Shown piece by piece: positions 311 to 34,431 of a DNA stretch of 64,000 nucleotides. Source of the stretch: Daphnia pulex. Its lineage: Eukaryota; Arthropoda; Branchiopoda; Diplostraca; Daphniidae. Each line of letters starts with the position of its first letter. The first letter of the stretch is position 1. The position numbers and the translations under genes were made by a program. A model generated the notes under the pieces. The model was not told where the DNA came from. It saw only the letters and a program-made list of their open reading frames with translations, and made no database searches. The DNA is taken from contig NC_060023.1 of assembly GCF_021134715.1 (NCBI RefSeq), positions 8,742,001 to 8,806,000 on the forward strand. The letters are read 5' to 3'.

Positions 311-569
311 CTGGTAAAGCGGTTGTTGTTTGTGGTTGAGCAGCACCACCCGGAAGTGTCAATCCACGCAAGTTTCCATGTTTGGTCCTGACCACTCGAC
401 CGGGGCCGGCTGACGTCCAAGGAATGGAGGCGGCACTGACCGATCCCAACATACCAACCGAGAAGCACTGGAGTGTGATCGAGGCACAGATGAAAAGTAG
501 TAATAACTTTGTTCCAGCAAAGGTGCCATTGTCGTTGATTCGAACTGGCTTCATCGTTACATCGTGCAT
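311..569 (-). CDS. Neuroligin-like protein, first coding exon (partial; gene continues off the left edge)
   Basis: The exon begins with ATG at 569-567 and ends in phase 1 at a GT donor (310-309). It encodes about 86 residues: a short N-terminal part, a hydrophobic signal segment (LLLLFICASITLQCF), then the start of a carboxylesterase-like domain (RVVRTKHGNLRGL). It has the same length (259 nt) and the same phase as the first exon of the neuroligin gene at 25031-25289, with only about six amino-acid differences. Since it lies downstream of that gene on the same strand, it cannot be its alternative first exon; the remaining exons should lie left of base 1. Strong coding conservation argues for a working gene, but a stranded partial duplicate is not excluded. 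Confidence 0.75.
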
Positions 570-3500
570 CACTGTCGATAACAAACACGCCACATCAATG
601 GTAAGCACAAAGATGGTCGACCTCCGTGTAATGAAACTTTGGAACTGACAAGTGTCCGACTCCTTGTCCTTTCACGGAATTTGTTGTAACAGAAAGAGCA
701 AATAGTCCTTGTTAGCCCGGCGCTGAAGCTGTCCCCAATCTCGTTTGTTGATTCTGGAAATTCTAATAAGACTTAAGTGAAAGATAACATGAGAGATGAG
801 ACTCGCTATAGAAACACTTTGACAATTGCTAGTTTAAATGTGATACTATTTTGCTACGTAACATGTTAATAATTCACGCATTTTCCCTTTCTCGACAGTG
901 TCAATACCCAGCTATCATTAATTCCGGTCTTTTGTTTTTGTGTTTTAGTTTCTGAAACTCATCAGGAGGTTGTGGTGGGAGTGTCAAATCACCAGACCAC
1001 AAGAAGTATTTTAAATTGCAAGAATGAACAAAGAACTTAATGTGGGTGAATTTGGTGAACTTGGTGAACTTCCAGATTACAATGAATGAATGGTGATGGC
1101 AACGAAAAGTTCAGCAACGGGCAAAGGATAAAACAGCAACGTAAGTTATTTTTTTTTCTTTTTGGCTTTATTTCTCTCCTGTAAAAATGCATCAGAAGCT
1201 TTTAGATAAGAAACTACGGGCCGCTGGTCAAGTCGATGGGTAGAGATAAGATGCTTTCCCTATTTATTATACAGTATCCATTAAGATGATTACGGGCTAT
1301 TAATTTTGGGCTGCCGAGAAAAAGTCTATAGAAGAAATGAGCTCTTTTGTTCTTTTACATCGCGACTGGTCGCGTCTGGTGGAGAGAAGCTGCAGTGTTT
1401 TTACAATCAAGTTATAGATGTGGGGGCCATTCGTCGGAGTTGTTTTTCCGCCTCTCCGCTGCCTTGAGAAGCGAAATGAACTTGCGCTGATGGAGACTGC
1501 AGATCTTTATGCCGAGGATGGTCCCACTTTTATCCTTCCAGCACTTGCTTCCTCTTATTTATTTTATTTATACAATTGGGGGGAGACTTGTGGAAGACGG
1601 AAATGAAAGTGCGCCGTTGTTTCTCGACTTTTTTTTTAAAGGAACGCGCCGTCTCTTCTGTCTGTGCACATCTGACCGCTCCACTGCTTTGTTGTGCCTT
1701 GTCTTCATTCAACTGAGAAATTTCAACTCTAACGAATTTTCAAATATGTTTCCACTCATTCAGGGGGAATAGAAACAAGTCAACTTTTCCAATCTATTTT
1801 TCTGCTTTCAATCACGGATGATATGAATCGTCTCGTCTTCTTTGGGAACTTTGCATCCTGCCGATGGTTATTTAAAAGAAACTCCATCCATTTCGAATCA
1901 TTTTTTTTCTTGGCTCATCCTCAGTAATGAAACTGTTTGGATGATCTTTCTTCTCCTTCCAGGTCAGAGGATGTAGATGGAGAATTTTTGAAGACTAGCC
2001 ATGTTGAATGTAGTAGAGTCCCTGAGTTTCTCCCATTTTTCGTTTTTCCATATGCGCCTCCATTTGAGGTAGAATTGCCACTCATTTCCTACCTGTCTAC
2101 TTATGAAGGCTATTTATGGCTACTGCAACCATTTAATGGAAATAAACCAGCAAGGGGAAACGAAGGAAACAACCGGCTTGAGATGAAAGAGTCAGGCCTT
2201 ACCCAATTTATAGTTAGGTCCCCCTTTAGCTGTCGGATCCAAGCGCAAATGGCATGCCGCTTACTACTACCATTTGGGCCGAAAAGGCAGAATTCTTATT
2301 CCGTGTGGATTACTGCGATGGGTACGAGAGTATTACGCTCACAGAACATAGGCATGTTTTCACTCGACTCTGTTGGTGAGACCAATATTGGAACCATTTG
2401 ATCCCAAGTTTGAAATTGGGACAGGTTTGCCACTTGGAAGCCACTGGGTGTCAGAGGTGTCACTTTACATGGCGCACAGCGGAACGACTCATCCAACTTT
2501 TCTCGAAAAGTAAATTAATAATCGAATTAAGTTCACGGTACAGTTGTAAGCGTCAGCCTCGGGCAGAAGACGCCGTGCAACTGGAATGATGAAACTCGCA
2601 CGGAATTGATACTGGGGTCGGGGGTCCCGAGAGTCGACTGAATCGGGGCGCACACGGCCCATGCGCCGTTCGATCGGCAAAAATGACAATTTCCGCGGGA
2701 GTGTTCTGCTGTGTTAATTTTTCTCTTAATCACCGACATTTGCCTCGTTAACGCCTTCTAGAAGCTGAAACGGGCAAAGTAGTCGAAAAAAAGGACAAAT
2801 ACCATAAAAGAATTTTGCATTGAGATCCGTGTGACCATTGCAAAATTTGTTTCAGTGGATCTTGACATTTGGTTGTTTAGAGAAAAAATATTTGTTGTTT
2901 TAATTCGATTAGTGGAGGGTAAAAAACTACCACCAAAGATTGCCTTTGTAGTCCTAAGGAAAAAAACAATAGTGTCAGAGTATTTCCCACTTTAGTGTTG
3001 GATCGTTCAATATTTGCTGCCATCTGACGAATCGCAATAATAGAATTAATTAGGTTGAAGAGCCTGCGTAGCTCATCATTTTATCCAATATAGTTGGAGG
3101 TCGATAGCAAGGAAAAGACATCGGCAATAAAGAATGGCCAGTGTGCAGTATAGTAATATCTGACGAAATGGTCCAGTGCTCTTCACTGAAACGTATCAAC
3201 GGCGTATGGGGGTCGGGTCGGTGCAAATGGTCAAATTATACACCGTCAACTGATGGCGGAGACGCAGCGGAGACTGTGATATGATGCTGCGCTTACACCC
3301 CAATTCCATAAATATATGGAAGCCCACACAAGAGACAAGAATAAGATTGTACCGCCGTGCGTGTCTACTATCTATAGAGCAATATTGTTGCAACTACCCG
3401 TGGTTTCATCGTCTCAGATGGCAAGGAAAAACGGACGCCCTTTTTCATTTTTCACAATACAAGTAGTACCGAAGGTTATACACGTACAGTGCATTCTCCG

Positions 3501-6500
3501 TACTTGCGGTTCACTCTGTTCTTTTGTCTGAATTGCTTTTACACATGTTTGCGTAGGGGAAACTGTACATATCATTATCATGCAATATCTCTACTTTATC
3601 TGCATGTTCAACCAGCGTCTCCTCTGTTTTGAAGTAGTATGTTGGCGAGTGCCCGTCTCTCTTGTCAAAACACGCATGGATTTGTTTTGTAATATCAAAC
3701 AGCTGCGGTTGATGTGTTTTTGCCACTGTGATCTGCGGCGGGGCTGTTCTGTTCATAAAAACGCTGGCCTCTAGCTCATCCCGTATCCATGCACTCCACT
3801 CCAAAGTAGTCAGACAACACTGAGATATTTCCTCTTTATCCTCGCTCCCATTCTTTATCCATCCCTCCACCATTGCAAATATCGCCGAACAAGAAGAGGT
3901 TTGATGAGTTTCTCGATGCATTGTCTGACGATGGGTGGCCTTATTGAGGCAAAAGCAATAAATTATCGGAGTAGAAGGGAAACAAACTGTGAGTGTTGGA
4001 ACGCCCCACAGGCGCAGTCAGATAAGAGATTCGGAGAACTGCTAGAGAATGCACTTTCCGAGCCCATTCAGCTTCGCAACGGACATTAGCTCGTAGTGGT
4101 TGGAGAGGACAACGAATCGCAGAAATCATTTCACGTTTAGCCAACAAACTCAAGTCGCCCAAAATCGTAGAGCGTTTGTTCTTAAGGTCATTTCGTGTTT
4201 AGTGATTTTGATTTTGCGTTTAACTCGAGCACCGGCTCCGATATTACCGAATCGAGGATCCTCCTTCAAAGAGAAGTTGTTTGAAAGCAAACTTGAAACA
4301 ATATTTTATTTTATTTTTTTAAATATTCCACGTGCCGTCTAGCGTTTAATGCGTTTATCCCGTTATTTCAAAATATTCCCGTAGGATAAAAGTGAAATTC
4401 CAAACGTTGAAAAGAAAAAAAAAAATACAGTAAAGGATTTTATCGAGTCAATGGCACACAAAATGTGGGTTGGAAGGTTCCTAACTCGGCAACGCCCTGA
4501 ATTCCTTGTTTCAACAAAACCTTTTAGAGAACTTTCTTTTTGTATTTTGTTTTAAGTAAAATGGACGTTAGAGGGCGTGATACCAGGTCACCGAGTGCGT
4601 TCTCCATCTTTCCAAATTCAAAACAAATTCGACGCTTTGTAAACACACAAAAAAAAGATCAACGGACGCCAACATGTTAAAAATGTACACGTGTTATTCT
4701 TATATTTGTTACGTTGAGAGTTAAAATGACGATTGCTTTTTTCTGCAAGCGCTGCCGTATATACATTCACGAGGAGAAAGTATAGGGAAAGTGAAATTAA
4801 ATGGAATACGGTACATCTTTTTGGGCCTTATTCCTATTTATCATATTTATGATAAAAAGTTGCTTCTTTAAAAAAGAGGAAACTTTTTCGTCTTTTGTCA
4901 AATTCAAGTAAGCGAAAAGAGTTGAAATGTTCTGGAAAGGATGAAAGGAACGCGCTTCTATTTTTAGATTTCTCGATTCCATTTCCCACCCACTCTCATT
5001 TTTAGATAACAAGAGCTTTTTCTCCTATTTGCTCTACCTTTTTTTCCTCCCCTCCCCAGCGGACTGCTCCATGCCTATATGCGTGTTGGTATAGTGTTAT
5101 TCATGTGAACACACAACAGCAGCATATAGAGTACAATCTGTCTATCCATCTTATCCATGAATCTATTGATCGGATTTGACATCAGCTCGCCGTTGGGTCT
5201 TGTTTGGTGGGTGCTGCTGCTGCTGGGGGGTTGGGGTTCGGTTGGTGCTGGATGGAGGAACTCGTCCTCGTCCCTCGACACTTTAATCAAATGTGTCGAC
5301 GTGGCGTGAGTGAGCCCACCGCGGAGCTGACACAAAAGATGTGTCGTCTGGAAGAAAGGAAGAAAGAACAACATTTCACGTCATCGTATCAAAACGGTGG
5401 GGTAGATATACACGTATATACCCATCCAGCCAACCCTTTACCCTTTACACAGAAACAACAGACAGCGACTCATTGTTTCGCTATGTCTGCCGGGCCGCAC
5501 GGAATCTAATTTCTTTTCTTTTTTTCGCAGCGACATCACGGTTATTGTTCTATAATAACCTCTTTTTCATGATGTAAAAGATGATAGATATATCTTTTTT
5601 TTCTTTGTGAATTTCTCAAGTTATTGCCCTCCTTCTCTTCTCTTCGTTGTTTGCTCCCCGGATAGTCGTTTATTTCACATTTGTGAAAGGAGAAAGAATG
5701 AAGAAGCTGCCGACTATACACTATTGATTAATGATGAATAGAGAGGGAGCGCAGCCTTTTTATACATACAAAGCGGTGCCTGTGCTGCGGTGATGAGCTG
5801 ATGGGTCTCTTTGAAGTCGGCGACGACGACGTTCTCCTCAATCGGTATCTCTGGCCGGAAAAGCGCACGCACATTCCCGTCGCCCGACGAGTGTGTGTGT
5901 GTGTATCGTCCTTTTATTTTTTTCTTTTGATATCGCCTCACTAGCCTTTTTTTCTTGTTTAATTATTTTATTTGTTTGATGTCATCAGCCCTCTTGCAAC
6001 TTGATCATCCCATCGGCGACTGCCGCCGGCTCCGCCTCTCGTCCGGCCCGCCGAGCCCTCCCGCACCATCATCCATCACGTTAAATTCGCCGCTTCTTTA
6101 TTCTGCGGTGATGGGCCTCAAAAATGCGCCTTGTGTTGGTTTCTATATGCGTGTGATGAGCGGCAGGCGCTCGCGGTGCAAAGGCCTTTAGCGTAGTATA
6201 TAGTCGGTAGGTTATCGCCATCTCCATTTCTTTCTTTCTCTTCGTGATACATTCACGCTCCGTCGCTCGTTCATTCCCTCCCGGTTGTCTCTCGCTTCTC
6301 GTTATCTTTCCTTTCTCTCGCTCGGCCTTATTGTTGGGAAAAAGGGAAAGTCGACGAGTCGTCTGGATATTATTTCAGACGACGGTGTGTGTATTTATTA
6401 GAAGTGAAATGATTCGCCGCTTTCCGGAGGCCGTCGGTTCGATACTATGGCCACACTCTGCTGCTGCGACAGAAGCCAGCCAGCAGACGAGTCTGCTGTA

Positions 6501-8854
6501 GATAGTGTTGGACGATTCCATCACTTTTTCTTTTAGATCTTGAGTTTTTTTAACGAGTCAGCCGATCTTTTCGCACGCTGTATGACCGCGGTCTTTGTCA
6601 TCATTTTCTGTTGGTTGGGAGACCTTTTCTTGCCTCGCTTGGCCCTGTATAGATTTCAACTATTATATATATTATTGACACTAGCGATGCGAACAAAAAA
6701 GTTCCGGGATCTTGCGAAAAAGGAAGTCGAATAAAAAAACATATTCCGCAGGCCGCAGTGAAATATTAAAAAATGAAAGAAATAAAGAATTCACGAATTC
6801 ACCGGATATCTTTTATGTATAGAAACGACTAGCGCTGGCGGTTGATATTTTCATTTCGATTTAAAATTTCATTCGGTTCCACCATCACATAAAAAATACA
6901 GTGGAATGACATCAAATTTTACTGCGACCACTCAGCGTGTACTGCTGCAGCGTGCAGCCCCTCTGTATTATACACTGGACATTACGTCTATGGGCCATGA
7001 CTGGGGATATGTAGGCCGACCATATTCCGAGATGTATTGAAGACTATTAGCGGAATAGATATAGACGGGAAAGAATAAAAAGGGAACAAAGAAAAGCTGC
7101 GAGAGATATAGCGAAGAAAAGGAACTGAGAGATCAATGACGACTGCCGGGTGTGGGCGACTAACGGAGCTATAGTGGGGAGGGGGGGCTTTGGTCCACAC
7201 GATGAGGATGTCGCCTGTCAAAAGGGATAGCTGCACCGGACGGAAGAAGAGTGCAGCCAGTGTATGTGTATAGAAAAAGAGTGCGCTGCTCTATTGGTCT
7301 TCTCTCTTTTCTTTTCTGTGTACACAGAACTGGCATTAGCCACGAATGGCTAACTTTGTACTTTTCTATCTTGTTCTCTTTCTCCCTCTCACTCTATACT
7401 ATCCCGCTATTTTATTTTTGTTGCTTGGTTTTTTTTTCTCTTTCTTTCTTCTGTGTAATCATAGCGAAAAACTGTACTGTGCAGTAACTTTTACAACTTG
7501 CAAGATTTGGTCGACAGGCCATGAGAGAATGATGAGCTTCAAGCATTTTTCAGCTCTTCAATTTTAAATGGTACGTGGATCAAACTTTGTATCGATATCA
7601 AATATTAAGGCCACTAGAAATCAAACGCTGAACTTTTGAATAATAAATAATATCATGTCGCAATCCCGTTTGTCGATTCGTAAAACCGCAATTGTCGATG
7701 ATTTATCGACCACGCCAGTTTCAGATGGGCACAGCGTTTACTGCTGTTTTGCTTTTACCTCATTTTCGGTTGGTTGGTCGCTGGTTATTTCAGTTGATCG
7801 TCTCTCTCTCCTTATTCATATCCCAACTTTTGTATTGAAATGTATTTGGCTCGATTTCAGCGCCTGTGTCGGTTGCGATAAAACTACTACAGTGCGGACG
7901 GCGGCATTTCCAATCCATTACGAGTTGATTGAATGCTCGCGAACGATATGGACAGGCCGACGGGCCACTCGAGAGTTTTCGTTCCAACTGCTAAAGCCCG
8001 AAGCTCCGCACTGAATGCGAACTGCGCACCCAGCCAGCGCGCCTACCTTCGGCTAGCTGTTGGTAGGATGAGAACGGCAGCCCTTTGGCCTTTGTCCATT
8101 GCAATTCTGGTGATGTCTATTTCTTTCTGGAAACAACAATAGGAGAGGATCGAGAAGAGAGAAACTTTCCTTATTCAAAGCCGTGTCGTGCTCTTCGGAG
8201 GAGTGCTACTTGACCTGCCATTCTTGGAAAAGTCTTTCATGCAGTTAATATTACGATTAAAATTTAGGAAATTTCGAAAAAAAAAGAAAAGAAAAGAACT
8301 AACAGTATCGCGTCAACGGCCCTTTTTACCTACTAAAGGGCCGAGACTAATTATTGCTTAGTCGAGGTTCCTGCGAGACTTCTTCATTAAATATTTTGAG
8401 GATTTTATCCAGACTGCACGTGCCGCAAGTTCAAGTGGAGCGCTGTTCTAAACGTTCAATATTAAAATGAAATTCGGGGAAATAATAGCTGATGTGAGAT
8501 GGCGAACTGTAATTGAGGACGAAGTTATTTGTACACAGACAATTCCAAAGTCAACGAAATTGAATTTCTACAAATTCGGGAACTGTATCACAATTTTTAG
8601 TGGAACACGGTAGGAGTGAAACAGTTTACAACGTATGTCGATCATTTAGCAGGCTCAAACAATCAAAGTCTTACTGATACCTCCACAGAATTGATTAATT
8701 ACACGTTAATCTCTTGAATTGATTTGGCACTCGCTTGCTGATAAGTCGCTGAAGAATCTGGCGGGTCTCGCCCACCTGCTCTTCTGTTGCCGGGTAAAGT
8801 TGCGCTTTTATTGCTCTCGTCCAACAAGAACTGAATAATTGGACCATAATTTCA
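570..8854. other. Intergenic region between two tandem neuroligin genes
   Basis: No convincing exon was found here. 570-6190 is the duplicated 5' flank described above. 6190-8854 has only short open frames without splice or family signals, with poly-pyrimidine runs around 7370-7450 and AT-rich stretches. It should hold the promoter of the gene starting at 569 and the 3' end of the gene whose coding sequence stops at 8855. I could not place a polyadenylation site with confidence. Confidence 0.5.
3511..3921 (-). CDS. Unrecognised open reading frame, 136 codons
   Basis: This open frame lies inside the near-identical block of the duplication. Its product is mixed and hydrophilic (for example EGWIKNGSEDKEEIS and HADKVEILHDNDMYSF), unlike the low-complexity noise typical of random frames, but I recognise no family. 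The corresponding segment in copy B (28837-29258) has lost five bases of a TGTTC slip inside the frame and so changes frame after about 58 residues. No clear splice sites or promoter were seen. It could be a relic exon, a lineage-specific gene, or chance. Confidence that it is translated is low. Confidence 0.2.
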   Translation of the reverse strand: MHRETHQTSSCSAIFAMVEGWIKNGSEDKEEISQCCLTTLEWSAWIRDELEASVFMNRTAPPQITVAKTHQPQLFDITKQIHACFDKRDGHSPTYYFKTEETLVEHADKVEILHDNDMYSFPYANMCKSNSDKRTE

Positions 8855-11800
8855 TCAACGCATTATTCTCCGAACTGCAATAAACGGTTTTACCTGATGA
8901 TGAGGTGATGGAACTCTGAGCAGAAAAGGTTGAGGAGACGGCAACCTGGTGCTGGTCGTCAAGTCAGACGAAACGACCCCACTGGCGAAAAGCGGTTGTT
9001 GCGGAGGAGGAGGAGGATGTTGTTGACCGAGTGCTTGTGACGTGATATCCGGATGATTACGCGGATGCTGGTGGCAATGGCTGATGACCAACTGGCGCAA
9101 ATCGGTCATCGATTCAATCGATTGCCTCGCAACTCGACCCTCCAACTGGCCGTCCGATATCCTCTGCAATTTGCCACAGAAAGAGTCAAATTATGAGAGA
9201 AAACATTATTATATGGATGTTGATTGTTATACTTGGATGGTATTTTCTGTGTCTACGTCGTTGTCGTCGCCGTTTCGTTTGCAATTGCCGCACCGACTGC
9301 GACGATAGATGGTGACGAAGAGAATTAAGTTAACAATCAGCAAAATATTTCCCAGCACCAAGATGATGCTCAGCGTCGCCTGGTTGGTCCAAAAGAAACC
9401 CAACACCAGCCGACTTTCTCCTCCAGCAACGCTGCTGACAGATGTGCTGTTGTTATTATTCCCCGGCGACGGGACAGTGGAAGAAGAAGAGCCCGTCTCC
9501 GACGCCATTACACTTGGATTCACTATTGTCCAATCCCCCGTTCCTTTTTGACAATGGGAATAGAAATACATTTATTAGTCAAGTTATTTTTGCTATCAAC
9601 GAAAACGGTTAGAAAAATAGCGACCAATAGCAACAAATAATAGAGACGACCCACCAAATGAAAATGTAACCTCAATAATTATTATTGGTTGCGTTCCTTG
9701 AAAGATTTTATCACAAATTTCTTATTTTTCAAAATATTATTCTCTCAATTCCAGAATTGGACGTCAGAATATTCGTTCATCAACAAACAAGAGAAGGGAA
9801 ATATTTTGGATTTCAACATTCGTTTCTGTTTTCATTACTGCAGCGTTTTCGCGTCTACATTTTCTCCAACAGTCGCGACTCGATTGAAAATAAATGACAA
9901 CGCCAACGTTCTTCGCATTCAAGGAACGTTCATATAAATAAAGAGTTTCGACATCTTTTCCCCACATTTTCTATTTTTCTTCAGTGTGGTTTTTGTCCAT
10001 TGTCGTGTTTCGCCTTTTCCGGCGTGGAATGGATCTGTGAATCGACGCCGATCTCCGCCTACACGTCCACTACTCCATTCCCTTCCCAGTCGCTTTCCAT
10101 TTTTCGTGTGGAGAAAACAAAATACTCTGCTGTCTTTATGTTGTTCTTGTTCACATCACAGTTTTATAAAAAATTATTCCCTTGTAATGAAAATAATTTT
10201 TGATAAAATTCCCCGAAATATTGATTTGGAGGGGAGCAGAGTCGACTGCGGTATAATGGCGCACCGGGACTTTATAACGATATTTTGGCCAAAGATATTC
10301 CGGTTATAACTTTGGGGATAGCGCTGTAGTTTCCAGCCGTCTTGAAAGACAAGTAAAACTTGGCAAGAACTGATATACCACAATCGAATTTGATAGGACT
10401 TTTTCCTCAACCCTCTTTTGAATAACATGTCGCTTATAATTACGTATATGACAATAATTGTGAAATGCATCTCATCAATAACACCGAAAAACGTCAAGAA
10501 TATCTATGATTGTTATTTACCTGGTGATGTGCCGTTAAGCGTCTGATTGTGACCACTTCGCTTGTGACCGTTGACGGAACTGCTACACTCGACCACTGTT
10601 GCGCTGGTGGCAACTGGATCCGCGTCCGACGTCAGCGGGGAATCCCGGGACCGTCCAATCGTCCTAGTAATGTTGTTGCCGGACAACCGAACGACTCCTT
10701 GAATTCGAAGAGTATTGTCGTTTCATCCACACACAAAAAAAAAAAAAGGAAAAAGAGAAAATATTATAGAGAACATATTTTAGTGACACTGTGTGATTGC
10801 GAATTACGGTGTGAAAATTCGTTCTGTACAATTTGATAAAGATCAAATGAAAAATATTCTCCAGCATTGCCTGTGTTGTTATATCTTATTTAATCTAATT
10901 ATGGGATATAGTACCTTCGTAGAATTGGTCGGCTGGAGTGTTATGCTGATCGAATGTGTGATGAATGGACGGATGAGTTCCGGTTCCATCGCCACTTGTC
11001 TGATGCAATGACGGAATCAGTTGCAGCCACACGGCAATCTGGTGACCCCGGTAGTGAGTCTTCAAATGGGCGTGCTGTTGTTTTCCTTTAAATAGAAATT
11101 CATGAAATGTAAATATACACGAAATAATAATTATTTTTTTTTTTCGCAGAACATTTACTCGCCCAAGTTTTAATTACGTACTCTCTAGAGTGGAATCGAA
11201 GATTTTCTTTGCTCAATTAACATTTAATGTACATGTAGCGAATTGAATATATACCCAGACGAGGCAACTTTAGATTACGAAGAACGCCCATATTATTAAG
11301 TTGTGATGCTTCAAAAAACTTTCAAGTAATAGTGTATCTCCATGACTCCATAACAAATAATAACGATATCCTTCCATTCAGATGGAAGATCTATTGGGTG
11401 AGAGTTTATCCACCAAGGATGAATGATGTGCATGGGGAGAGAAGGACTTGAAAGACTCACCAAAGACCATGTAGTACTGCGAATGTAAATTGAATGGCTC
11501 CCATCGGAGTTTGGATCGCGGCATCAGCTCTCCTTTGCTTCCGATCTCCAAATTAGGATCCCTGTGCGTCATGGGCGGGCGAAAAAGCGGCAAAAACAAA
11601 AACAAAAATGTCCGTTCTGTTAGTTCGGAGCTGGCCTTCCTCTCTTGCAAGAATTATAGTCAGGAACTCAATCACAATATATATTAATTAAAAAGAAAGA
11701 AAGATGACGACTTGCCCAGTGCTAGCAAAAGACGCCAGAAATGGGAGGAGCTGAGTGCCTGACGTTGTCGGTTCTCTTGTGGTTTCCGTCACATTGATGA

Positions 11801-14800
11801 CCGTGTAACCGGCGCTGCTCGCTGCTTCGTGGTTATTACCGTCGGCCGATGACCAAGAAGCTCCGTTGGCTGTGGCGTCCAATTGCAGCGCTTCCAGTTC
11901 GTCACCCGTCACGCTTCCTAGACGCTGTTTTCATTATCATTTATAAAAATATCGTGGAATCAAATATGTCGGTTTTCATTATTTAATGGGGGCTATGGTC
12001 TACACTTGAAAGATTGGAATACTCGCCCTACTTCCCCCTACTTGCCCTCATATCTTCATCCAGTTAGAAGTAATAGGATAGTAATAAAAAATAATGAGAT
12101 TCCATATTTAGTAAATTTCTAAAATATTTGTGGTGAGGTTTATTCTTTTAAGGGTTTGAGTTTATGGAAGACGATTGGAATAATTGCGATCAAAGTTTCC
12201 TACTTTTTTGGTTTCAAGTTTTTCTATGGTAAGCGCATTGCAAAGCAAAATGGTAAAATTAACCCATGTTATAATAACATCTTGCCTGGGATATAGCCCT
12301 CTAAATGTTAAGACAACTACAGTAGATTCAATTATCCTGCATTTGAGACATGTTTTTCCTATAAAATCGAGCGAAATCAAGTCATTATTTTGCAATATAA
12401 TAAAACTGACAGTGATGCATTCCACCATTCACTCATTGATCCTCCAACAATATTATTCCAGCTAGCCAGAAATGTTTAATTGTATTACTGCGATTTAGGT
12501 TTCTTTGCTCTCATGATGGATGGCAAGACGTTGACTGCTTGCCCCCAAAACATCAGCTGTGTTCCCTTGATTTATGAATTTCCCCACTTATTTGAGCCCC
12601 CGGTGATGGATGGCCTCTTCATCCATCCTCAGTCCAATATATTTGGACTAGTCTACGACGACATCTTCATCACAACGCGAATTCGATTTATACATTTCCC
12701 CCTAGAAGATCTGGCGAACGAAAACTGCTGGTTCGAAAATCGATTGTTACAGCACTCACGTGATACTCGGAAAGGTCGACGTCTTGGACCTGCTGTTGGA
12801 TGACGCTGGCCAACATTTGCCCCTGGAAGTGGTAGAAAAAGGTCCCCGACGGGTTTGTCGATCGCTGGGCGTGCAGGTGAACGACGTGCATGAGTGGGGC
12901 CACCACCAGGGCGTCGCTCAGTGCCAACGACAGGCTGTCGCGCATCGACAAGTCGTCCAGCGCCGACGGACGATCCCAATCCGTGTACTCGTTCCTGTTG
13001 GTGGTGGCAATTCGATTATTCAGCAAGTCAACTCACGTCACATTGCGTGGGCGTCAAGTAATTTTCTTCCTTTACCGCAAGACGTAAAAGATTTCATTGA
13101 GATGGTACTGGTAAAAGTTGCGGATCAGAGTGCGCAGCGACCGATCCCGTTTGTCTTCACTGATCCCGTTGCGCAAATCCGCATCCCTGTAGATGAGAAG
13201 AGTCGTTATTCAATATAAAATGTAAGATACGGCATCAACGGCAAGAAAGTGATTGTTCATTTCGGATATTCAGCGGCACTCCTACAAAAATTGTTTACGC
13301 TGTAAAAGGTTTCTTCACTGGGGGGAAAGAGGGAATAATACGAGTCGAAGGAGTCTAGCGTCTCCTGTCATTTTGGCGGATGTGGTCATAAATGGGATTC
13401 CTGATATTAGCATTACAATTACAGTTAAGTATCGGGTTCTATTCAGAAAATTTCATTAAACGCCATATACGCGTCACCGCCAACAGTACTAGTACGTATA
13501 TAGCAAAAGATAAAAGACAAAATATTCAAACCTCCTCTTACCCCCGACGGTATGTACAATTGTACATTGATCAGAAGCTAAACGTACGTAAAAATATTCT
13601 GGGCAAAAAAAAAAAGAGAGTTCTGGTAGATCGTTTCCTCTTCCCCTTTCTTAGCTTATTTACCTCGTTCACAGCGCCCTAATGGCATCGCCAGACTATA
13701 GAATATTGATTAGTACAGTATGTATAAAGAAATCGCTGTGGCTGCGCATTTACATTTTTGCAAAACAACTAAAAGTGGTTTTCTGAGATTGGGCTGCTGT
13801 TAGACGGAATGCATTACGCTTTTACTTTGTCAAGTGGCGTTGAATAATTGAAGATTTCATACGATCAACATTTCCCCATGCAGCCACCGTTGTTCACTTG
13901 CTTTTGAGAAAGGGACACAACGAACGAGAATATTTACATTTGAAAGGGAAACTTTGATAATTTTCCCACCACAAGCATCGATTTGCATATTATTCAATTC
14001 AATCAGCCTTTGGTTTTCAGAGGGGGGGGGGGAGAGGTTGATGATTGCAGAAGTAATAAAACCCCATGACTAAATTGATAAGGTCGTTTCCTTGTAATTC
14101 CAAATGAATCTCGCTCGTAAATAAGGTAAGCTGTATATTCAGATGTGATTATTTTCTCAAGTTTCGTGAAATGGATAATCATTCTCGATGACACTGCTGA
14201 TGGGCCCGTTCGTCTATGCAAATAATCCAGGCATTTCATTGCCCTGGGGCTCCCTCGTTTAGTTTGAAATTTTCTATTCTTGAGAGATGCCGTACAATTA
14301 CATTAAGGAAATTAACGGCAGCATGACACTTTCTCGGGTTTTGTAAGCAAAAGTTTAAAATCCCAAATTAGCGGATGTGAAAGCCGAGCTCAGAGAACTT
14401 AACTAATTTGACCTTTACAAATATTAGAGTTCTACGGAACTGCTGCTTAATAGGGAAACTTCCAAACGATAATCGAAGGTATCATTTAGGGTATTCTATA
14501 ATACTAACAGTTAAGACGATGCGAGTGTTGCAGTGTTACTCTTTGAAACGAAAAAGGAATAAAAAAATAGGAATAGATAAATCGTTGTTTACCCAGTGTA
14601 GCGATAGCTCTCGATGGAAGTGACTCCGGCAACGAGTGGGATGCGAGCGAAATCCTCACTCGCCGATTGCATGGCGCGAAGGGGATCGATGGCGACGATC
14701 CCGGCGCCATCGACGAAAGGCGCGAAACTTGCGAAGAATCGCGGAGGCGCCGGAAGGCGGACGGCCATGAGGGATTCGAGTGGTTTCTTTCGTAGGCAGT

Positions 14801-17800
14801 CGCCAATGTCGGCCAAACTCATCTGCTCAGCACTTGCGGCTCCATCCGATCCGGCAAACGGCTCGCAGTCCATCTGGCGGGCCACTTCTGCTTTCAACTT
14901 GCCGGCCTGATGATTCAAAGCCCACGGACTCAACGCCGAGCCGGACATCAGCACAACCCGCTGGAACAGTCCTGCACAAAACAAAGTTCAAAAATGACAA
15001 GAAATTGTTCCTCGAACACATAGGAATGCCAACTAGGAATATGTACTGCGACTGTGCTGTCACGCGTGGTCGGAATGAAAAAATGTTTAGAACATCACAG
15101 ATGATTTGGATGCACTTCATGAAAAAGCGGGGGAAAAAAATCAAAAAAATTGCGGGCACGGGACTTGAGAAGAATATCAATCTACTACATGTATGCGCCT
15201 ATAGTTATGTCGTTCTGTATCTGCCGTCGCTCCCGTTTCCTGTTGGAATCCTTATCTGTCAACTGCGTATAATCGAATCGGAGACGAGCAAACAGTCTGG
15301 TCGTCGAAGCGCAAGTAGGTAAATACATAAGATTCAATTTCAAGAATTTCGACGCCTTCTTCTTCTCTTTGGCGTCTGGTTCGTTTCAAATCGGTCGTCG
15401 TTGTTTATTTTTCCTCATCGCTACGCGCGCTCGTGACTGGATGCTGAAATTTATGTTTTTTTTCTTGTTGATTTTTTCCCCCCTCTAACTTTGTCTTCAA
15501 AGTCTCTCATATCTGAAAATTGATGGCGGGATGTTACGGATGTTTGGAGGGGAAATCTTCCTTTCCCATTTTTACCGATGATTCAACTTTAAACAACATC
15601 GCGATGTATACAAGAAATTGAAATAAAGCTATACGAAAGAAAGTCTTTTTTTTCTTCCTTTCTTTCTTCCCCTCTCCAAATGGAAAATAACGATACGAAT
15701 GATAATGTACGCCGGCAATAGTACGGCTGTAACATCAACGGCGAGTAGACTCTCTTTCCTACTTCCACGCCAAAAAAATCGATAGCGGCTGATATGGTAC
15801 GCATGACGTCAAAGACGATACACCGTACGTGGTGTATCACTTTGAATTCAAATCATAAGACTTTTAAAGGGGAGAAAAAGAAAGTGGAAGAGAGAGAATA
15901 AATGAAACCTTAATTCTATAAATCAATTGGGAAGCGCTTGAGAGCAGAATATTTTACACTACACTGCAACGCAGTATAGTTCGATTAAATATGCGTATTA
16001 CATCGAATTCTTTCTCCGACATGGGAAATTGCATTTTCGACGCACCAATCGGAAGGCCGAAATCAAGGAATCAACTTTGAGATTCGGCTGTAGGTTTAAC
16101 GAACTGTTCGATTCTACAAATAAAATGGGTTCCTATTCGACACGATACGAGTCAAAATATTATTACCTCGATTACTCATTTCACTCGGATACAAAGAGAT
16201 TAAAAAATTACATTCAAATAAAAATAATTTCCTACGCTTCGGCTTACACCATAATAGAATTATTGATCCAAAATAGCTTATAGGTAGCCAATATATTTAG
16301 GGGGGGGGCTGTGCTGTGTTAGGCAACAATCACCGTGAAGTCGTGCTTTTTGTTCCGGTGTAATGAGGTGGAAAAAGACTGGCCTCGACCATCCCACCCT
16401 CCAAAAGAAAAATGACCCAGAAAGGCTAGACACGGGATTAACACTCCAGAGAAATTGCACCGAAACCGACTCGCATTAAGCTGAGCTACATCGCGAGTCA
16501 TATAGCCTTTTCTTTCGTACTCTGCGCACTCTCCGTTTCACTGGATGAGGAGGACCTTGGTGGATGGGGTAATTTATTACGAAACCCTGCATAACTGTTA
16601 CTGTCAGCGAAAAGTCAGACCATCCCTTAATAAAACTAGGGTGCCATTCGCCGAAATATGGGCCTTTCATTTTGTATGCGCGTCACTGTCTTTCACGCTA
16701 CGTTACGTAACACAAGCTATGCATTTACATACATACTTTGTAATTAGCATAGGCCATTCAGCCATTTTAACACTTGTGCATTACTAATCAACGCAGAGAA
16801 GTTGAACTCTTGAACGTACATTGTATGCAAATCGGCTTTCGAAAAATCGTTCGATAAATATCTCAATTTCTTGGTCTTCCGCAATTCTATCCGTACCCCG
16901 AACATTTGAAATTCCGAATTTTTTTTACAAAGAAATAAATTTCTTCATTTTCTTTTGTTGTGGTCAACGTTGTACCGATTTCTTGGGGCAAACGTGAGTA
17001 ACCGTGGGAAGAAGTTAAGATTCGGCATTATTGTAATCCTTCTCAATCCAGAATTCCAGATATGAAATTGCAGTTTGTTGATCCCTCGATATCTCTACAA
17101 CGAATCCATTGAAAAGAAATGAATCTTCCTTCTCTGAAAATCTAATTTCATCTGCTTCTTCTTTTTCAATTTCGCCAATCTTATATGAAATCCTATTTCG
17201 GTAAGACGGTTGCTGGTATCAGTTCTTTTCAATTTCTAGCAGATCGCAATAAAGAAACACATTACCCTGGTTACCACAAAAACGGTTTCAATTCAATTAT
17301 TTCTAAAGAAATCCAGAGGGGGGGGGGCATTGAATTTTTGTAATAGCGACGATTGGCAAGGTTATGATAATTTATCAATTTTATCTTTTAAACTACACAA
17401 ACAAGCCTACATTACACGAGGGAAGGCTAAAATAGACGATAAAAAGGAACGGCATTAAACCATTTTAATTAAATTAAACGGAAACACTACAAATGAGTCA
17501 AAATCGGTAGTTATACTCGAAGAACAAAAGGCAGCGATAATAATGACCTAAGTTGATGTTCTGTATCAACTATAGCTAGAAAAGATAAGGGAATTCAAAG
17601 AATAACAGAACGCTCACGCGCTGTGTTGCCACACTTTTGATCGAATCAAGACGCCGGGTCGCAACAAAGGACATCCTTTTCCAAAAACAAACGGCCGACT
17701 ACGTCTGAGGAATTCTGCTATTGCACTCGAGTTGCCATCGGCCATATTTGCACACAGACACATCAAAGAAGTGCTGGATGTACAACTGAATAAGTCTTGG

Positions 17801-20800
17801 AATATAAGTTGTGATATAAAATACAGACTTCTGTTTTGTTTGTTTGGGGATTAAAAAGCAACCAAGTTTCTGTCTCTTCTCAGAGTATTGGGATTATGAT
17901 TTGCTATCTCTTTGTCTACGGCTAGATTCTTTGTCGACCTTTTTGTGCTGTGGGTGTTACTTTTGTCAAGTTTCGAGACGACATCCGAGCCTCGTATTTC
18001 CATCTCTTCAACTTTAGGAAGAAGATTCGAGAGAGGAGAGTGGGGGTGGGAGTAGAGTGTGGCAAAAAGAATAAACAAGGACGCCAGAAAAAAAAGGGGA
18101 AAGTTCTCCAATATCCGATCCTCAAGTGAACTTTGTAGCTGCTACAAAGATGCGACTGCCTTTTGCTTGCAACGGATCCCCAGTTAGCGATTAGAGGGGG
18201 CAGACGTCACAAAAGAGAATTCTCTCGGCTGCTGTGGAAACTCATCCCTCCAAATCCAGTGTGTCTGCCAGTCCAATATCCAGACTAGATCCACTGCTGC
18301 GTATTAATAAAAAGAGGGAGGAGAAAGAGCGAAAGAAGGATAGAGTTCTGTATATGTATATGTTCGCCGCATATCCTTTGAATGAGGTCCAACGACTGTA
18401 TGACCCACAGTTTTCTGTCTCGTGATTTTCATCCGTTTTTCCCTCACTGCCACAATTCCCGCGATTTTCAAAGTTCGATATGCGACGACGGAGACCTTTG
18501 CGCTTCTCTCTTGCATGTTGTAGCCTATCCATCTAATCAAAATCGGGGCACTACGGTACATTTAAAGAAAAGAAAGAAAGCAGAGAAAGCACCTCAATAG
18601 ACCCATAGGCTCTCTGTGGCGTATAGAAACTCGATGGCTCACAATACCACTCAACGACATGGAAATGATACCCCGAAAAAAAAGGAGAAAAAGGAGAAGA
18701 CTTGTAGGTAGCCTGTGGGCTAGAAGTGTCTTACAAACAGAATTACGGATGCCCTTGAGAACGCTAACGTCGTTTTATTTCGATTTTTGGTGCTGTCGTA
18801 ATGAAATCGTAACGAAATTTCTGTCATTTTCCCAACGATACTACCAATGTAAACTGTGAAGTGAATTAAAAATAAGTTTTTCTCTTTGTTCCCTGATCGG
18901 AGAACTGTTTAGTTAGTTCAGTTTTTGAAAGTTAATAGAGGGTGAATTTCCTTTTCTCCTTTTCATTTGAATTGGTTCGCTCTCTAAATTGGACTAAGTT
19001 CTGAGTCGACGAACCAACTGAACGATCCTTTTTTCAAAACGTTCGATCAATTTTTAGTAGTCGAAACAAGCTGTTCATTTTCCAAGAAAAATTCACTCCA
19101 CACAACCGCATTGTCTAAACCAACCTATCACTTGCACCAACTTCCATTTGCCAAAAATATGAATATTATTGCTGTGTCACTGAAGCAGCAGTTGACGACG
19201 AGATTTCCCCCAAAAAAATTACTTTGAATTTAAGAAAGTTGCATCTGCTCCCAATTGTACGCGCAATTGGAGAGCGTGCACCTATTTTTCGCATTATAAG
19301 TATAAAAGCATTTCATATTTAAAAAAAGTGCACCGTCCACGACAGTCGACAAGTAAGCAAGATCCGTTGAAGTGCTGACTGTGCTGTATTGATCGATTTT
19401 GTTTTGCTTCTATGCCCTACGCAATCAAAGAACCAGAACGGCCAACCACTATATCCAGCGGTGTGTGGCTGACAAGTGCCTCCGTCGACATACGTAGAAT
19501 TGTATAGCAGTAGCCAGGCTTTAACCTGGCTGTATATCGTATTACCGCCATAAGCATCGCAATATAGCTAGGGAAAAAGAAAACCCCGAGAAATAAGGCC
19601 CCGGTAAACACACATCGGTGAACTAGTACATGAATGAAAGTCAAAGATCAAAGTGTATACACATCATGGACGGGGTAGAAGGGGATCTGTACAGCACAAC
19701 ACGGTTATAGGGATCCATTAGGATTGTCTACGTCGATTGGGATTCTTGTAGCTTGATTCGATTTTGTTTTTTCTTACTGTACCGAACTATGCTGGCCTTT
19801 AGCTCTATAGAGTATTCTGCTAGTTATACCGTTATTAGCCGAGATACCAGATACGTTAGCCTCTTTCAACAATGTTGGGGGCTCATCATTTTGTTTCTTT
19901 TTTTTTCTATGGTTTTGTTGTTTTGGCAAATGTCCCATCCTATACTCAAAATTTCTCTGAACCTATCGGATCTATCGAAAATACTAGGCTCTGTGGTAGT
20001 TTCGTAACTGTCATTATTTGACAGACGGTGGCAGACGGTGACAGAACGGAGAGAATCCCTTTTCGCCATTCCTTAGTTTTTACAACGGAATATCCGAATG
20101 TGTCTTCATTCTTTTTCCTCCGCAGAACGTTCTAAATGGTTTTTCCCGTTTCCTTTTGGTAAATCTGCAGTAAAGAAACCATTTACTCGAGAGCGTAGCC
20201 AACTTATCTTGCCAGAGCCTTTCGGTTCCTCGTCAAGAAGACCAAAAAGAGCGGAAGTTTTTTTTTGTATGTGTGTAAAAATAACAAAAAACAAAAAAAA
20301 AACATCAACTCCTCTATCAAATGTCTTTTGGCTCTTATAGCACACCCGAGTATTGGAAACAAAAGCCTCTGGGGATCAAATGCTACTATTAAGCTCTTAT
20401 TATACGGTATAATATCCATCTTGAGTAAAATCACCACAGTTCATACATAGAGAGTCGACATCAAGATAATAACAGATTAGTGGTGGCAAGCTGGCAACCA
20501 ACTCGTTGCAGAAAACTCAAACAATAATAGGCTACACTCTACCATGTCGTGAGATTTGGTAAAGCCGGGAAGAGAATGACAATCAGAAGCCAAACGCAAA
20601 ATGAAAAACGCGATTTAGCGCAAGGGAACTGATGGCCAATATCTCGGTTGAAGAGCCTTGGGACGAATCGGACATGAAGAAGGACGGACTAGCTATTTCA
20701 TATGTGCCCTACTAAACCGCTGTAATAGCCGATGGGTCGCCATGGATCTAAAAGCAATAGGACCGTCGGTGGTCTACGGATACTAAGGATGGGGATCTAT

Positions 20801-23800
20801 TCAGACGGAACCGCAGGGAATGGGGAAAATCGATCATGTCGTAATGCGTTAACCATCGTCCGCCGTTGATGTTCATCACGGGCAAAAAAGACGAATGGAA
20901 GGGGATCCTCTATGATCACAGACCCAAACCGGCAGACAAAGCAAACGTAGGATAATAATGGAGAGGGTGAATGAAGCGACTTACCGGCTGCAATGGGCGA
21001 GATCATGAGAAGATTGACGAGGGCAGCGCCCGTTCCGTGGCCACTCAACGTGATGCGACTCGAGTCGCCGCCAAAGACGCCGATGTTGTCCTTCAGCCAC
21101 AGCACAGCCGCCACTTGTTATCGGCAGAATCGAAATATGAGCCAATACTATCGTCGAAATGTCCACGTCATCATCGCTGCCGTCATTTCTTACCTATATC
21201 CAATAAGCCGTAATTGCCTTGCGTCGGGATGGCACTTTTGCTTTTGCCGCGGACTTGACCGGGAGTCGGACTGGCTGCCGTCTGTAGGAATCCTGTATGG
21301 GATGGTTTTACACATTATTAGTGTTAAAATCATAAACCAGTTTCAAATTTCCTCTAAATTAATTTATCCTAGAGTTCTAAATATTGGAGACTGCCATGTT
21401 GAAAAATTGAGTGCGGCAAATGAACACATGATTACATGAAATCCAATATCTTTGCTCCGGCACTGGAGACGATGTGCCGTTACCGTCAAAGCCAACGACC
21501 CGTTAGCCAATGGGCGACGAGCAACTCAAGTATTAATAAGACGAGTCGTGCGTCACATTTAGAGGATGTTTGATTGTACCTAAAATGCCAAGACGGTAGT
21601 TGAGGGTGACAACGACCATGCGACTTTTTCCGGCCAACATTGCGCCATCCATCAAGTGCCCGGCACCCCAGGAGTAGGACTCGCCGTGAACGAGGACCAT
21701 GACGGGCGATGACGCAAGCGAAGTCGATCCACCACCAGCAAATCCTGTGAACGATTTCACATTTCCAGAAAAAATTAGGTGAATTTGCTTTCAGTTACAG
21801 AAATAAAATACTGCAATAAAAAGGAATGATATCGGTAAGAATGACAAATGACAAAGAATGGAAAAACCTGATACCGACAAAATATTTCACGCCAGATCCG
21901 CTCAGAGTTGCTTTTTTCTATTGGTAAGATTTGACGGATGTTTCGCCAGTGGAAAAAAAGGTGTCGTTATTATGTGGAATTGTGCTGACCAGTTATTGAA
22001 TTGAGGCCAACCATAAAGAGACGTGTGGAGGGTGTGAAGGATGTGTTGTCGTATTTCGCGTGGGTCATCTCTGGTTGAAAGGGACTTTTATCTCTTTCCA
22101 AGTTTATTGATAAAAATGGCATAGATATTATATGGGACAAGCACTTTCGGACGTGCTATTCGCCGCCAGTTTTCTATTTCCCTGCACGTTATTCTCCTCC
22201 GCTCTTCTGTAATATGGATGCGATTACAATGGAAACTGCTCGGCTGCCGGCCATTGATCTAAATAATCGCGGGCAAGCCGAATGGGCAAGATGGTTGGCA
22301 CAGGCACTTGGACCTTGGATCTGGCAAACTTGATCGAATAAAGGAACTCGGCTGCATGTGGCGGTGACAAAAGAAAACCTGTCGGATCAATAGTTTGAGC
22401 TCAGTTTCCTACGAAGCCGCTGATGACGACGATAATAGCCAATAGATTTCATGAAAGACTCGCACGGGAGTGAAGGAAAAACATCACCCGACTTGGGTTT
22501 GTTGGGTTCGTCGAGTCCCGTCTTAGTGTCACGTTGGATTTTCTTTTGTGGCATCTGATACGATTGAAAATGTCTGTCAATATCCTCGATTGTTCCAACT
22601 TGCGAATTGGATAGAATACGGTGAACCTCATTGGGTGAGGAATGCATCACGTTCTTCCATTTTGCATGTTCTTAATCAGTCATGCAATGCGTCCGTCAAA
22701 TTTGACACCAACAACAGAACCAAGAGAATAAAAGAAGCGGTCAAGTGGGCAGGCGTCAAGTAAACAAAACGAACGCGCTGCTGACGAAGGTCCTTGACGG
22801 TATTCATAGACAAAGTGAACAAGTTATGAATGGAAATGAGACCAGAGACGGGCCAGGAAATGGAAACCCTGACGTCGAGTTCTATTGGTCTCTAACGGGA
22901 ACGGTAGCGAAGTGTTGCTGGGCGTCGGGTACAACCTGAATCAAAGTGCCGAAAACCAGTGGCGTCCGCGTCCATGTTCTCGTCTTTACACATATTCAGC
23001 ATCATCTTATTGATCGCCTTGCTTTATGAACCGTGATGGAAAGTATCCGCTAATTAGAACAAGGGTCTACCTTTTTGGACAGCGAAGGCGCAATAAGAAA
23101 ACGGTTGGCGTGTCTTTTTCTCGGATTATTCCATTAAAAGGAAGAACAATAAAGATAGAAGAAGAAGAGTAAAAGAAGAAGTCGAACCTTCAGATGGGGC
23201 GTAAACGTTGAGGTAGAGGCAATCTTCGCTCTGATTGGCCAGCAGTAACTGCATCCTCTTGAGTTGGTAATAGCGAGCTCGAGGCATCGTCTCCAAACTG
23301 GCCGTTCTGCGTAGATACAAAATGACATTTACGTTATTCCAATTTAGACAGAAAAAACCTTATCACGACGGTGTCAAATGTACGACAGTGTATAACAGAA
23401 TGATGCGAGTAAACGTCTGTGGTCTAGATTAGAATTAACGAATTGGTTTTCAAATACAGCGACAATGTTACCCAAAAAAACAAAAAAATGTTTCGTGAAT
23501 CGCAACATTTAGGATGAATTTCCTTTGATTTGACGTCTTGATTCACCTAAACGTCTAGAGCCGTTTCTTTTTTTTCTTTTTTGTTTGCCCTTTTTCGTTA
23601 CTGCCGACAAATCGTTTCTGGCCAACGACCAATGGACCCATTCCATTTTTGAAGTTCAAAGAGTCAAAGCGATTGAATCATGTGCAGATGACATTTCGAT
23701 TTATCAGCTGATCGGCAAGAAAATCGATTGGACGTCATGAAATATCACAAAAGAGAAAGAACATTAAGAGTCTTCTACAGTTCAAAATTACCGGCATAAA

Positions 23801-25289
23801 ACGAAATCGTAAACGGAACGTCCATCAATACTTTTCTACGTAGATGTGGACGTTTTAAAACACAATGAAAGAACAAAAGATTTTCATAGTTAGAGGAAAA
23901 CGTAAAGGAATTCAAGAGCAAAAATGATTTGACTATTCGCGTTACAATTAGTGCGTGGGTTAATCGCTACACCCGAGACCCGAGACCCGACATTGGATCG
24001 TTCTAGTGTCTTTTCCACACATTGTTAACTTGGGATTCTCTTGGGTCAACTATTTCCCGCCTTTCACCCCGATTTTGTCCTTTACTGTCTCGCCTAACCT
24101 AGCTGGCTATAAATAAACGGAGACGTCATTTCCCGACTTTAGAGGATAGCGAGCTGCGAGCAATATATTTCAGGCAGAACATCGGGTTCTTTTTTGTCGC
24201 ATCGGCTGTTCCGTGTCGCCTAACGAGGACGAAGCCTTGGCAGATTTACGATCTCTCATCTTCACAGACTTTCTCTCACGGCTTCGCTTTCCTTTTTCTT
24301 CTTCCCTTATGAAATTCACCAAGAATTCCTCAAACAAACATCGGTAGGCAAAACGAATTGACACATGAAATAAGGTTTTAATGAAACCGTTAGATACGTT
24401 TTAGATCTGAGATACGGAATCAATCTTTCATAATGTTTAAGAAATAGAAAATCGATTATCGTGTGCACCTGTTGGCCAAGGGTGGCAGCTGCTGGGGACA
24501 AGCTGGCGATAGAGCGTTTGCTGATCGAATGCCCGTCCATGGGCCAGGACTCGCTGGCGGTAGGAAGCGCAGAGAACCAACTGGCGGAGCAGCGTAAGGA
24601 ATTCCCAGGAACGCCTCCACGTTCTTGTTGTTGCTTCCGCCGACGGATTTACGATGTCCTCCTTATAAAATATGGAAACAATGTTAGGGCGGTATTTTAC
24701 TTGGTTTCGTAGATGTTATCGACCGTTTATACATTTGCAGCATACACGCACAGAATATGTTGCCAATTATATGAATGTACTTAGTATGATACGTTTTTTT
24801 TTTTTTTTTTATTTACGAATAGCAATCGACGAGAAAAGGGCCAAATGTATCCAGCTTGTCTTTTGTTCAATTACACTCCCATCATTGACTGACAGATTAC
24901 TGGCTTTCATTGGCAGTCAAAAGAGACTAAAAAATAATTGTCAAGACGTTATTACAGGAATACCGGAAGGAATACATTACGATAAGATTCGTCACTTCTG
25001 GTTTAATTAAAAAAACATCAGTGAAAATACCTGGTGAAGCAGTTGTTGGTTGTGGTTGAGCAGCACCACCCGGAAGTGTCAATCCACGCAAGTTCCCATG
25101 TTTGGTCCTTACCACTCGACCGGGGCCGGCTGACGTCCAAGGAATAGAGGCGGCACTGACCGATCCCAGCATACCGACCGAGAAGCACTGGAGTGTGATC
25201 GAGGCGCAGATGAAAAGTAGTAATAACTTCGTGGCAGAAAAGGCGCCATTGTCGTTGATTCGCACTGGCTTCATCGTTACATTGTGCAT
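8855..25289 (-). CDS. Nlg: Neuroligin (cholinesterase-like postsynaptic adhesion protein), 15 exons
   Basis: Exons (minus order): 25031-25289, 24469-24661, 23188-23306, 21580-21744, 21194-21292, 20985-21113, 14593-14971, 13076-13186, 12760-12994, 11716-11924, 11461-11561, 10915-11085, 10521-10697, 9233-9543, 8855-9163. All phases agree; about 988 residues. In order: signal peptide, FLGIPYAAPPVGSLRF, SEDCLYLNVYAP, VLVHGESYSWGAGHL, GNYGLLDI, LFQRVVLMSGSALSPW, NEYTDWDRPS, FASTGDPN, HYRGHQIAVWLQLIPSLH, Ser/Thr-rich stalk, one membrane helix (LSIILVLGNILLIVNLILF, exon 14) and a cytoplasmic tail rich in Pro, His and Gln. The nucleophile motif is GHGTG, with no serine, so it is an adhesion protein, not an esterase. 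Neuroligins bind neurexins at synapses. The last exon may end at 8855 or splice on from a GT at 8893-8892; the PDZ-binding end was not identified. Confidence 0.92.
11562..11715 (-). other. GC-AG intron of the neuroligin gene
   Basis: The exon at 11716-11924 ends in ACTGG followed by GCAAGT, which fits the donor consensus except for GC in place of GT. The next exon starts after CAG at 11563-11562. This join alone restores the family motif FASTGDPN; no GT in the neighbourhood does. GC-AG introns are a known minor class with otherwise strong donor consensus. Confidence 0.8.
14972..20984 (-). other. Large neuroligin intron (6.0 kb)
   Basis: This intron splits the esterase-like domain just after the GHGTG motif, between exon 6 and exon 7. 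Apart from the tRNA-like element at 16296-16497, I see only short chance frames, homopolymer runs (G at 17319-17328) and a TATAAAA-like sequence near 19301 that is not followed by a recognisable exon. There is no evidence of a nested gene. Confidence 0.5.
16296..16497 (-). mobile_element. Candidate tRNA-derived SINE
   Basis: Read on the minus strand, a TAGCTCAGCTTAATG sequence beginning at 16488 matches the RNA polymerase III A box. A degenerate B box (GTGTTAATCCC, 16444-16434) follows exactly 44 bases later, which is the tRNA spacing. About 140 bases of unrelated sequence follow, ending near a run of pyrimidines (C run at 16303-16310). The acceptor stem is not restored, so it is not a working tRNA. 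This pattern suits a decayed tRNA-headed SINE inside the large neuroligin intron. No target-site duplication was found, and no second copy in this window. Confidence 0.35.
21745..24468 (-). other. Neuroligin introns 2 and 3
   Basis: Apart from the exon at 23188-23306, this stretch is intronic. A sequence resembling a TATA box (GCTATAAATAAACGG, near 24106) is present but no exon of a nested gene follows it. No repeats or RNA genes were recognised. Confidence 0.5.
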
Positions 25290-34387: not shown

Positions 34388-34431
34388 AGTTAAGTAGACC
34401 TTAGGTAAGAAACTCATTAAGGATTTACATA

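Follow-up and report, generated by a model that had tools for sequence, protein, structure and literature searches.

The neuroligins that form the gene clusters of insects are old, diverged paralogs. Here we describe two neuroligin genes of Daphnia pulex, R (right) and L (left), arranged head to tail on contig NC_060023.1 (C7) of assembly GCF_021134715.1, around a window of 64,000 nucleotides (C7:8742001-8806000) whose own positions are used below unless a contig is named. In the honeybee, NLG-1, -3 and -4 are reported to be tightly linked, with an order and orientation shared by bee, fly and mosquito (Biswas et al., 2008; PMC2570956), and six neuroligins have been reported for the salmon louse (PMC8387733). 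The Daphnia locus is similar to the insect clusters, as these are portrayed in the account cited, in that several neuroligin genes are linked on one chromosome; unlike them, the cholinesterase-like domains of R and L are virtually identical and the genes lie about 25 kb apart. Regarding concerted evolution, yeast genome duplicates are described in which it is confined to coding sequence while non-coding homology is hardly detectable, as well as opsin genes lying about 24 kb from each other and showing local divergence peaks (Fawcett and Innan, 2011; PMC3924837). From what that paper relates, L and R share homogenised coding parts with the yeast duplicates, and spacing and local divergence peaks with the opsins; in contrast to the yeast duplicates, their near-identical tracts are not purely coding, and include several introns and three non-exonic blocks. 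Drosophila duplicates undergoing interlocus conversion are said to display high divergence at block edges and, mostly, a non-synonymous divergence (KA) below the synonymous one (KS) (PMC2588116); according to that source they were tested with sister species, whereas conversion between L and R is read from one genome. The exon 4 and 6 arrays of Daphnia Dscam likewise consist of copies in tandem inside a neuronal adhesion gene, for which the authors state that no evidence of gene conversion was found (PMC3236188); homogenisation between L and R, unlike there, is strong. Tandem neuroligins have precedents, as has concerted evolution; the L/R pair was not found in the literature searched: neither tandem Daphnia neuroligins nor neuroligin-neuroligin conversion appeared among the matches listed from titles and abstract beginnings of open-licence articles. 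Nothing decisive came from PMC11754708 or PMC12102780 either, and in PMC6097596 neuroligins figure only as the name of a pathway.

R is a complete gene of 15 coding exons on the minus strand (25289..8855) encoding 988 amino acids, and L comes after it on the same strand (569 to -16090 on the window scale, C7:8742569-8725910), encoding 991 amino acids. A first-pass annotation of the window had drawn attention to two 259-nt exons sharing length, phase and almost all codons, each with its own duplicated upstream flank and with a complete neuroligin gene between them on their strand, from which a second neuroligin to the left, at a period of about 24.7 kb, was predicted. These observations were confirmed. 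The two copies of coding exon 1 (L, 311..569; R, 25031..25289; minus strand) are identical at 243 of 259 positions without gaps, and both run from an ATG to a GT donor in matching phase, their 5' limits (569 and 25289) being the first ATG and not a demonstrated transcript end. The flanks match in patches that reach 6081/32306, namely 290-2700/25010-27424 (84.4%, exon 1 included, E-value 0), 3358-3955/28730-29282 (86.6%, E-value 0) and 5722-6081/31995-32306 (71.5%, E-value 4.5e-43). The prediction itself was supported when the fourteen downstream exons were looked for, as the annotation had proposed, in 70 kb of sequence taken left of the window: all 14 are present in the order and strand of R (C7:8741251 down to 8725910, window scale -749 to -16090), at L-R offsets from 24,442 (exon 7) to 25,410 (exon 2), with 24,720 for exon 1. 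All 15 coding exons are hence found in both genes, agreeing in strand, order, phase and, except for exon 12, length (9 nt longer in L, where the exon start was set to allow for the insertion); in both, exon 10 is followed by a GC-AG intron, and each frame is open throughout, with a single stop at its end.

Identity between L and R is bimodal, with near-identical islands alternating with stretches in which alignment is poor or fails altogether, and this mosaic, missed in the first-pass annotation, is more informative than the exon duplication itself. A two-state segmentation of the L-R alignment, with parameters chosen by us, assigned 11,678 aligned columns to the near-identical state, with mismatches at 47 of 2964 coding and 231 of 8714 non-coding columns; segments of at least 178 bp in this state cover 10.6 of the 23.5 kb of the R unit (a sum over a hand-typed list), and the low-identity stretches show roughly 50% in the gapped alignment. 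One exon-bearing island comprises exons 2 (24469..24661, 191/193 identical to L; all R exons on the minus strand), 3 (23188..23306, 116/119), 4 (21580..21744, 165/165), 5 (21194..21292, 98/99) and 6 (20985..21113, 128/129) together with introns 2-5. Exon 7 (14593..14971, 373/379) forms an island alone, 14591-14979, with edges at most 10 bp from the exon; exons 8 (13076..13186, 110/111) and 9 (12760..12994, 233/235) share another, as do exons 10 (11716..11924, 207/209) and 11 (11461..11561, 101/101). The last one, with weaker parts, contains exons 12 (10915..11085, in which the L copy has three additional codons, QQQ), 13 (10521..10697, 175/177), 14 (9233..9543, 308/311) and 15 (8855..9163, 305/309), the latter carrying the tail up to the TGA stop, with an AATAAA about 40 nt past it. 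Introns 3, 4, 5 and 8 are 98.8-100% identical between L and R, intron 3 (1443 bp) at 98.9%, whereas intron 7 (1406 bp in R, 1896 bp in L) shows 53% in the gapped alignment.

Three further islands contain no exon. Upstream of the genes, 1185..2415 of L corresponds to 25910..27142 of R with 27 substitutions in 1229 aligned columns, and 3409..3955 of L corresponds to 28786..29282 of R with 13 differences in 495 columns and a 46-column gap; the third is the intron-6 block of R at 17689..18705, with 15 of 1012 positions different from L (C7:8735115-8736146). In searches that covered 133,188,837 bases in 13 contigs, the near-identical upstream blocks occurred at two genome places only, and a transposon origin was rejected for them. 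The exon 1 island diverges by 5.9%. Eleven low stretches were scored, each against 20 shuffles. Three scored at shuffle level (up4, 19; up3, 17; 3far, 17), int6a (25) fell within the shuffle range (maximum 26) and 5far (24) was barely above its maximum of 23, whereas six exceeded every shuffle, strongly for upE1 (132) and weakly for int7 (51), int1 (39), int6b (39), int9 (29) and int11 (28), block edges possibly feeding some of these scores; we interpret the stretches above shuffle level as old homology that has nearly vanished. Within intron 6 of R, 15050..17450 retains at most weak residual similarity to L, and 18850..20600 aligns to L no better than shuffled sequence. Each of the three unaligned intron-6 stretches searched, these two included, matched nothing in the genome but itself; therefore 15050-17450 is not a recent repeat insertion, and such an origin was rejected for the three.

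Substitution counts separate exon 1 from the remaining exons. Exons 2-15 have 27 synonymous differences in 655.8 sites (synonymous divergence per site, dS, 0.042) and 4 non-synonymous differences in 2050.2 sites (non-synonymous divergence, dN, 0.002), while exon 1 has 10 in 68.2 synonymous sites (dS 0.163; dN 0.032; Fisher p 0.0012 for the synonymous counts). The ten islands, that of exon 1 among them, differ in divergence when coding and non-coding positions are pooled (chi-square p 7e-5); so do two parts of the exon 2-6 island, chosen post hoc, in their non-coding differences (31/607 against 21/1843, p 7e-8). Since non-synonymous changes account for only 4 of the 31 seen in exons 2-15, a count for which a neutral copy with a mean dN/dS of 0.5 gives P 4e-8 (four or fewer), both intact reading frames are under purifying selection; the test speaks to constraint, not to expression. 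A third neuroligin paralog lies at C7:12013092-12026624 on the minus strand and matches 14 of the 15 exons; over these, R differs from it at 393.3 of 619.7 synonymous sites (63.5%, dS about 1.4), and the synonymous similarity of L and R is thus not due to frozen codons. Low L-R divergence unexplained by constraint, and exons 2-15 with a dS of 0.042 next to introns whose alignment is poor or absent, are what concerted evolution leaves behind; a neutral duplication of a single age does not produce such differences in divergence.

We consider that these data are best accounted for, with a probability of about 0.86, by an old tandem duplication that was patchwise homogenised by interlocus gene conversion, both copies being under purifying selection and exon 1 largely exempt from homogenisation. 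The original duplication would have comprised roughly 23 kb, including several kilobases of promoter-side DNA. Later conversion would have overwritten most exons, some introns and the three non-exonic blocks, as the mosaic suggests, while the parts in between have drifted until barely or no longer recognisable. Selection may hold the exons, and possibly a small number of regulatory blocks, alike enough for strand invasion, so that conversion would recur there and halt at diverged introns; exon 1, encoding the leader and N-terminus, has largely escaped homogenisation together with its flanks. Homogenisation extends to introns 3, 4, 5 and 8, and conversion templated by mRNA was therefore rejected.

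A recent origin was weighed against this: one tandem duplication at about 2-4% divergence, followed by independent replacement or deletion of many intron and upstream stretches without conversion. Nine of the ten islands counted do fall within 0.5-3.0% divergence, in agreement with such an event; however, about eight replacements of roughly 0.2-2.5 kb would be required, all of them sparing exons, and the replacing sequence would be single copy in the genome in the three stretches searched. Moreover, exon 1 (dS 0.163) and its 600-bp upstream flank (score 132, highest shuffle 24) are homologous yet look much older, and homology above every shuffle persists in 6 of the 11 low stretches, all of which makes this scenario improbable. 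An old duplication maintained by purifying selection alone on exons and a few non-coding elements would explain why islands are centred on exons, and why one upstream island has a 22-bp core that also occurs upstream of the third paralog. Nevertheless, it would have to reconcile a synonymous difference of about 4% between L and R in exons 2-15 with the 63.5% between R and the third paralog, and whole near-identical introns, such as intron 3, with matches to that paralog that nearly all overlap exons, and we regard it as very improbable.

Comparably small, or slightly smaller, is the chance that two haplotypes of one gene were set in tandem by the assembly. Near-identity over long stretches would fit this; still, alleles are not expected to be unrecognisable over kilobases of some introns while remaining 98-100% identical in other introns, and a coding indel of 9 nt and unequal intron lengths further set the copies apart. 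That 311-569 is merely an alternative first exon of a single gene, as its strand and its position next to a complete gene might suggest, is refuted by its own exons 2-15 to the left, with a frame open throughout, and this option retains practically no probability. Four points nonetheless weigh against duplication followed by conversion. Since experimental mean conversion tracts are given as about 200-500 bp in a review (PMC3924818), islands of 4.2 kb (exons 2-6) and 1.2 kb (upstream) would call for recurrent conversion or for exceptionally long tracts. The exon 7 island ends so close to its exon that selection alone would produce the same picture if synonymous sites were less similar; the narrow divergence range of the islands other than exon 1 is what a single recent event would yield; and a fault of the assembly retains a small probability.

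With both reading frames intact and under constraint, the arrangement likely amounts to a double gene dose of one neuroligin, the cholinesterase-like domains differing only by a three-glutamine insertion. Of 988 aligned residues, the proteins share 978, with substitutions at alignment columns 3, 16, 18, 19, 81, 85, 719, 752, 776 and 967 and the QQQ of L at columns 669-671, columns 86-668 being identical. That two synaptic-adhesion genes persist side by side, both intact and all but identical in their cholinesterase-like domain, is probably a matter of dosage. If conversion is the correct explanation, dS between tandem duplicates of this kind would date the last conversion and not the duplication. 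An additional and tentative idea, which we hold to be unlikely, is that the exon-free islands (1185-2415, 3409-3955 and 17689-18705) mark regulatory elements kept alike for co-expression, and that exon 1 is protected from conversion by selection, which would preserve the difference between the two leaders. Were it true, conversion islands in tandem genes could offer a map of functional non-coding DNA from a single genome. The three blocks are candidates for neuronal enhancers.

In blastn at E 1e-3, all matches to the region of the third paralog overlap exons (one spanning the 80-bp intron 5) but three, at 5128-5190, 7327-7372 and 37299-37352. The conserved upstream element 5128..5190 has a counterpart upstream of the third paralog (C7:12035903-12035963, 80% identity in 65 bp), and the core of the element aligns again at R 31634-31654; together with 7327-7372, which matches C7:12036938-12036984, the element keeps the same order in both regions (E 2e-5 each). 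A reversed-sequence control with a larger, 134-kb query gave a best E of 0.007. Inside the second upstream islands, a 22-bp string is identical at 22/22 positions among L 3700-3721, R 29030-29051 and C7:12028623-12028644, upstream of the third paralog (E 9e-4). These upstream matches suggest shared regulatory DNA. At E 1e-3, the 1185-2415 and intron-6 islands had no match at the third paralog, and the R copy of the former gave one 22-bp match at E 0.46. Farther upstream, 37299-37479 contains one short match of 54 bp (E 7e-5) and another of 52 bp (E 0.04), which recur with equal spacing at C7:12039726-12039905, beyond the third paralog, a hint that an older duplication may have reached that far.

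Neuroligins carry a C-terminal PDZ-binding motif. Both gene models end in VRRIMR, and an alternative last exon is possible. By sequence, R and L are neuroligins, and R is closer to these than to active esterases. The cholinesterase-like ectodomain (PF00135, COesterase) is found at R residues 94-686 with 366 bits (cut-off 27), and a search of residues 1-724 against solved sequences placed neuroligins in the top 14 positions (276-243 bits), followed by an acylcarnitine hydrolase at 157 bits, among the best 60 of 155 matches. The catalytic serine is lost, since exon 6 has GHGTG in place of the esterase GxSxG, aligned with GSGAG of neuroligin-4X. The exon 1 products (opening MHDVTMKPV and MHNVTMKPV; MHDVTMKPVRINDNG... 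and MHNVTMKPVRINDNG...) show a hydrophobic leader followed by VRTKHGNLRGL, and exon 14 encodes a hydrophobic, transmembrane-like segment, LSIILVLGNILLIVNLILFVTIY; the leader and this segment were noted by eye only.

Other neuroligin-like sequences were observed elsewhere in the genome. A run of neuroligin-like exon matches, 40-57% identical and on the plus strand, extends over contig C6:477926-613825, and may correspond in Daphnia to the neuroligin cluster of insects. On contig C8, a 7.8-kb repeat (C8:2575769-2594792) has copies 99.8% identical and 11.2 kb apart, each with neuroligin exon 1-2 pieces; a second tandem pair there (2578594, 2589795) was rejected, as only exon 1-2 pieces matched in the 60 kb examined. 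To the left of L, tblastn gave no match to a further neuroligin at E 0.01 within C7:8652001-8712000, and a weaker esterase match of 28-30% identity occurs at C7:8714947-8715617.

As for the rest of the window, no RNA family reached the gathering threshold. About 7.7 kb upstream of R exon 1, an open frame of 450 codons (33035-34387, plus strand) matches the 7tm chemosensory receptor family (PF08395, 36 bits). Next to it, 34430-35376 is a near-perfect palindrome of 947 bp, 95.2% identical to its own reverse complement. Scoring of 40 out of 97 candidates located it on 10 contigs, with no fewer than 35 copies near full length and 5 partial ones; the full-length copies are 93-100% identical in the better orientation, as in a high-copy foldback-like repeat. 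Inward-rectifier potassium channel C-terminal domains (PF17655) are encoded on opposite strands at 39948-40595 (plus) and 43720-44424 (minus), and an open frame of 582 amino acids at 52479-54227 (plus) consists almost wholly of YYTTTYAAPTYYTEAPKYY-type repeats.

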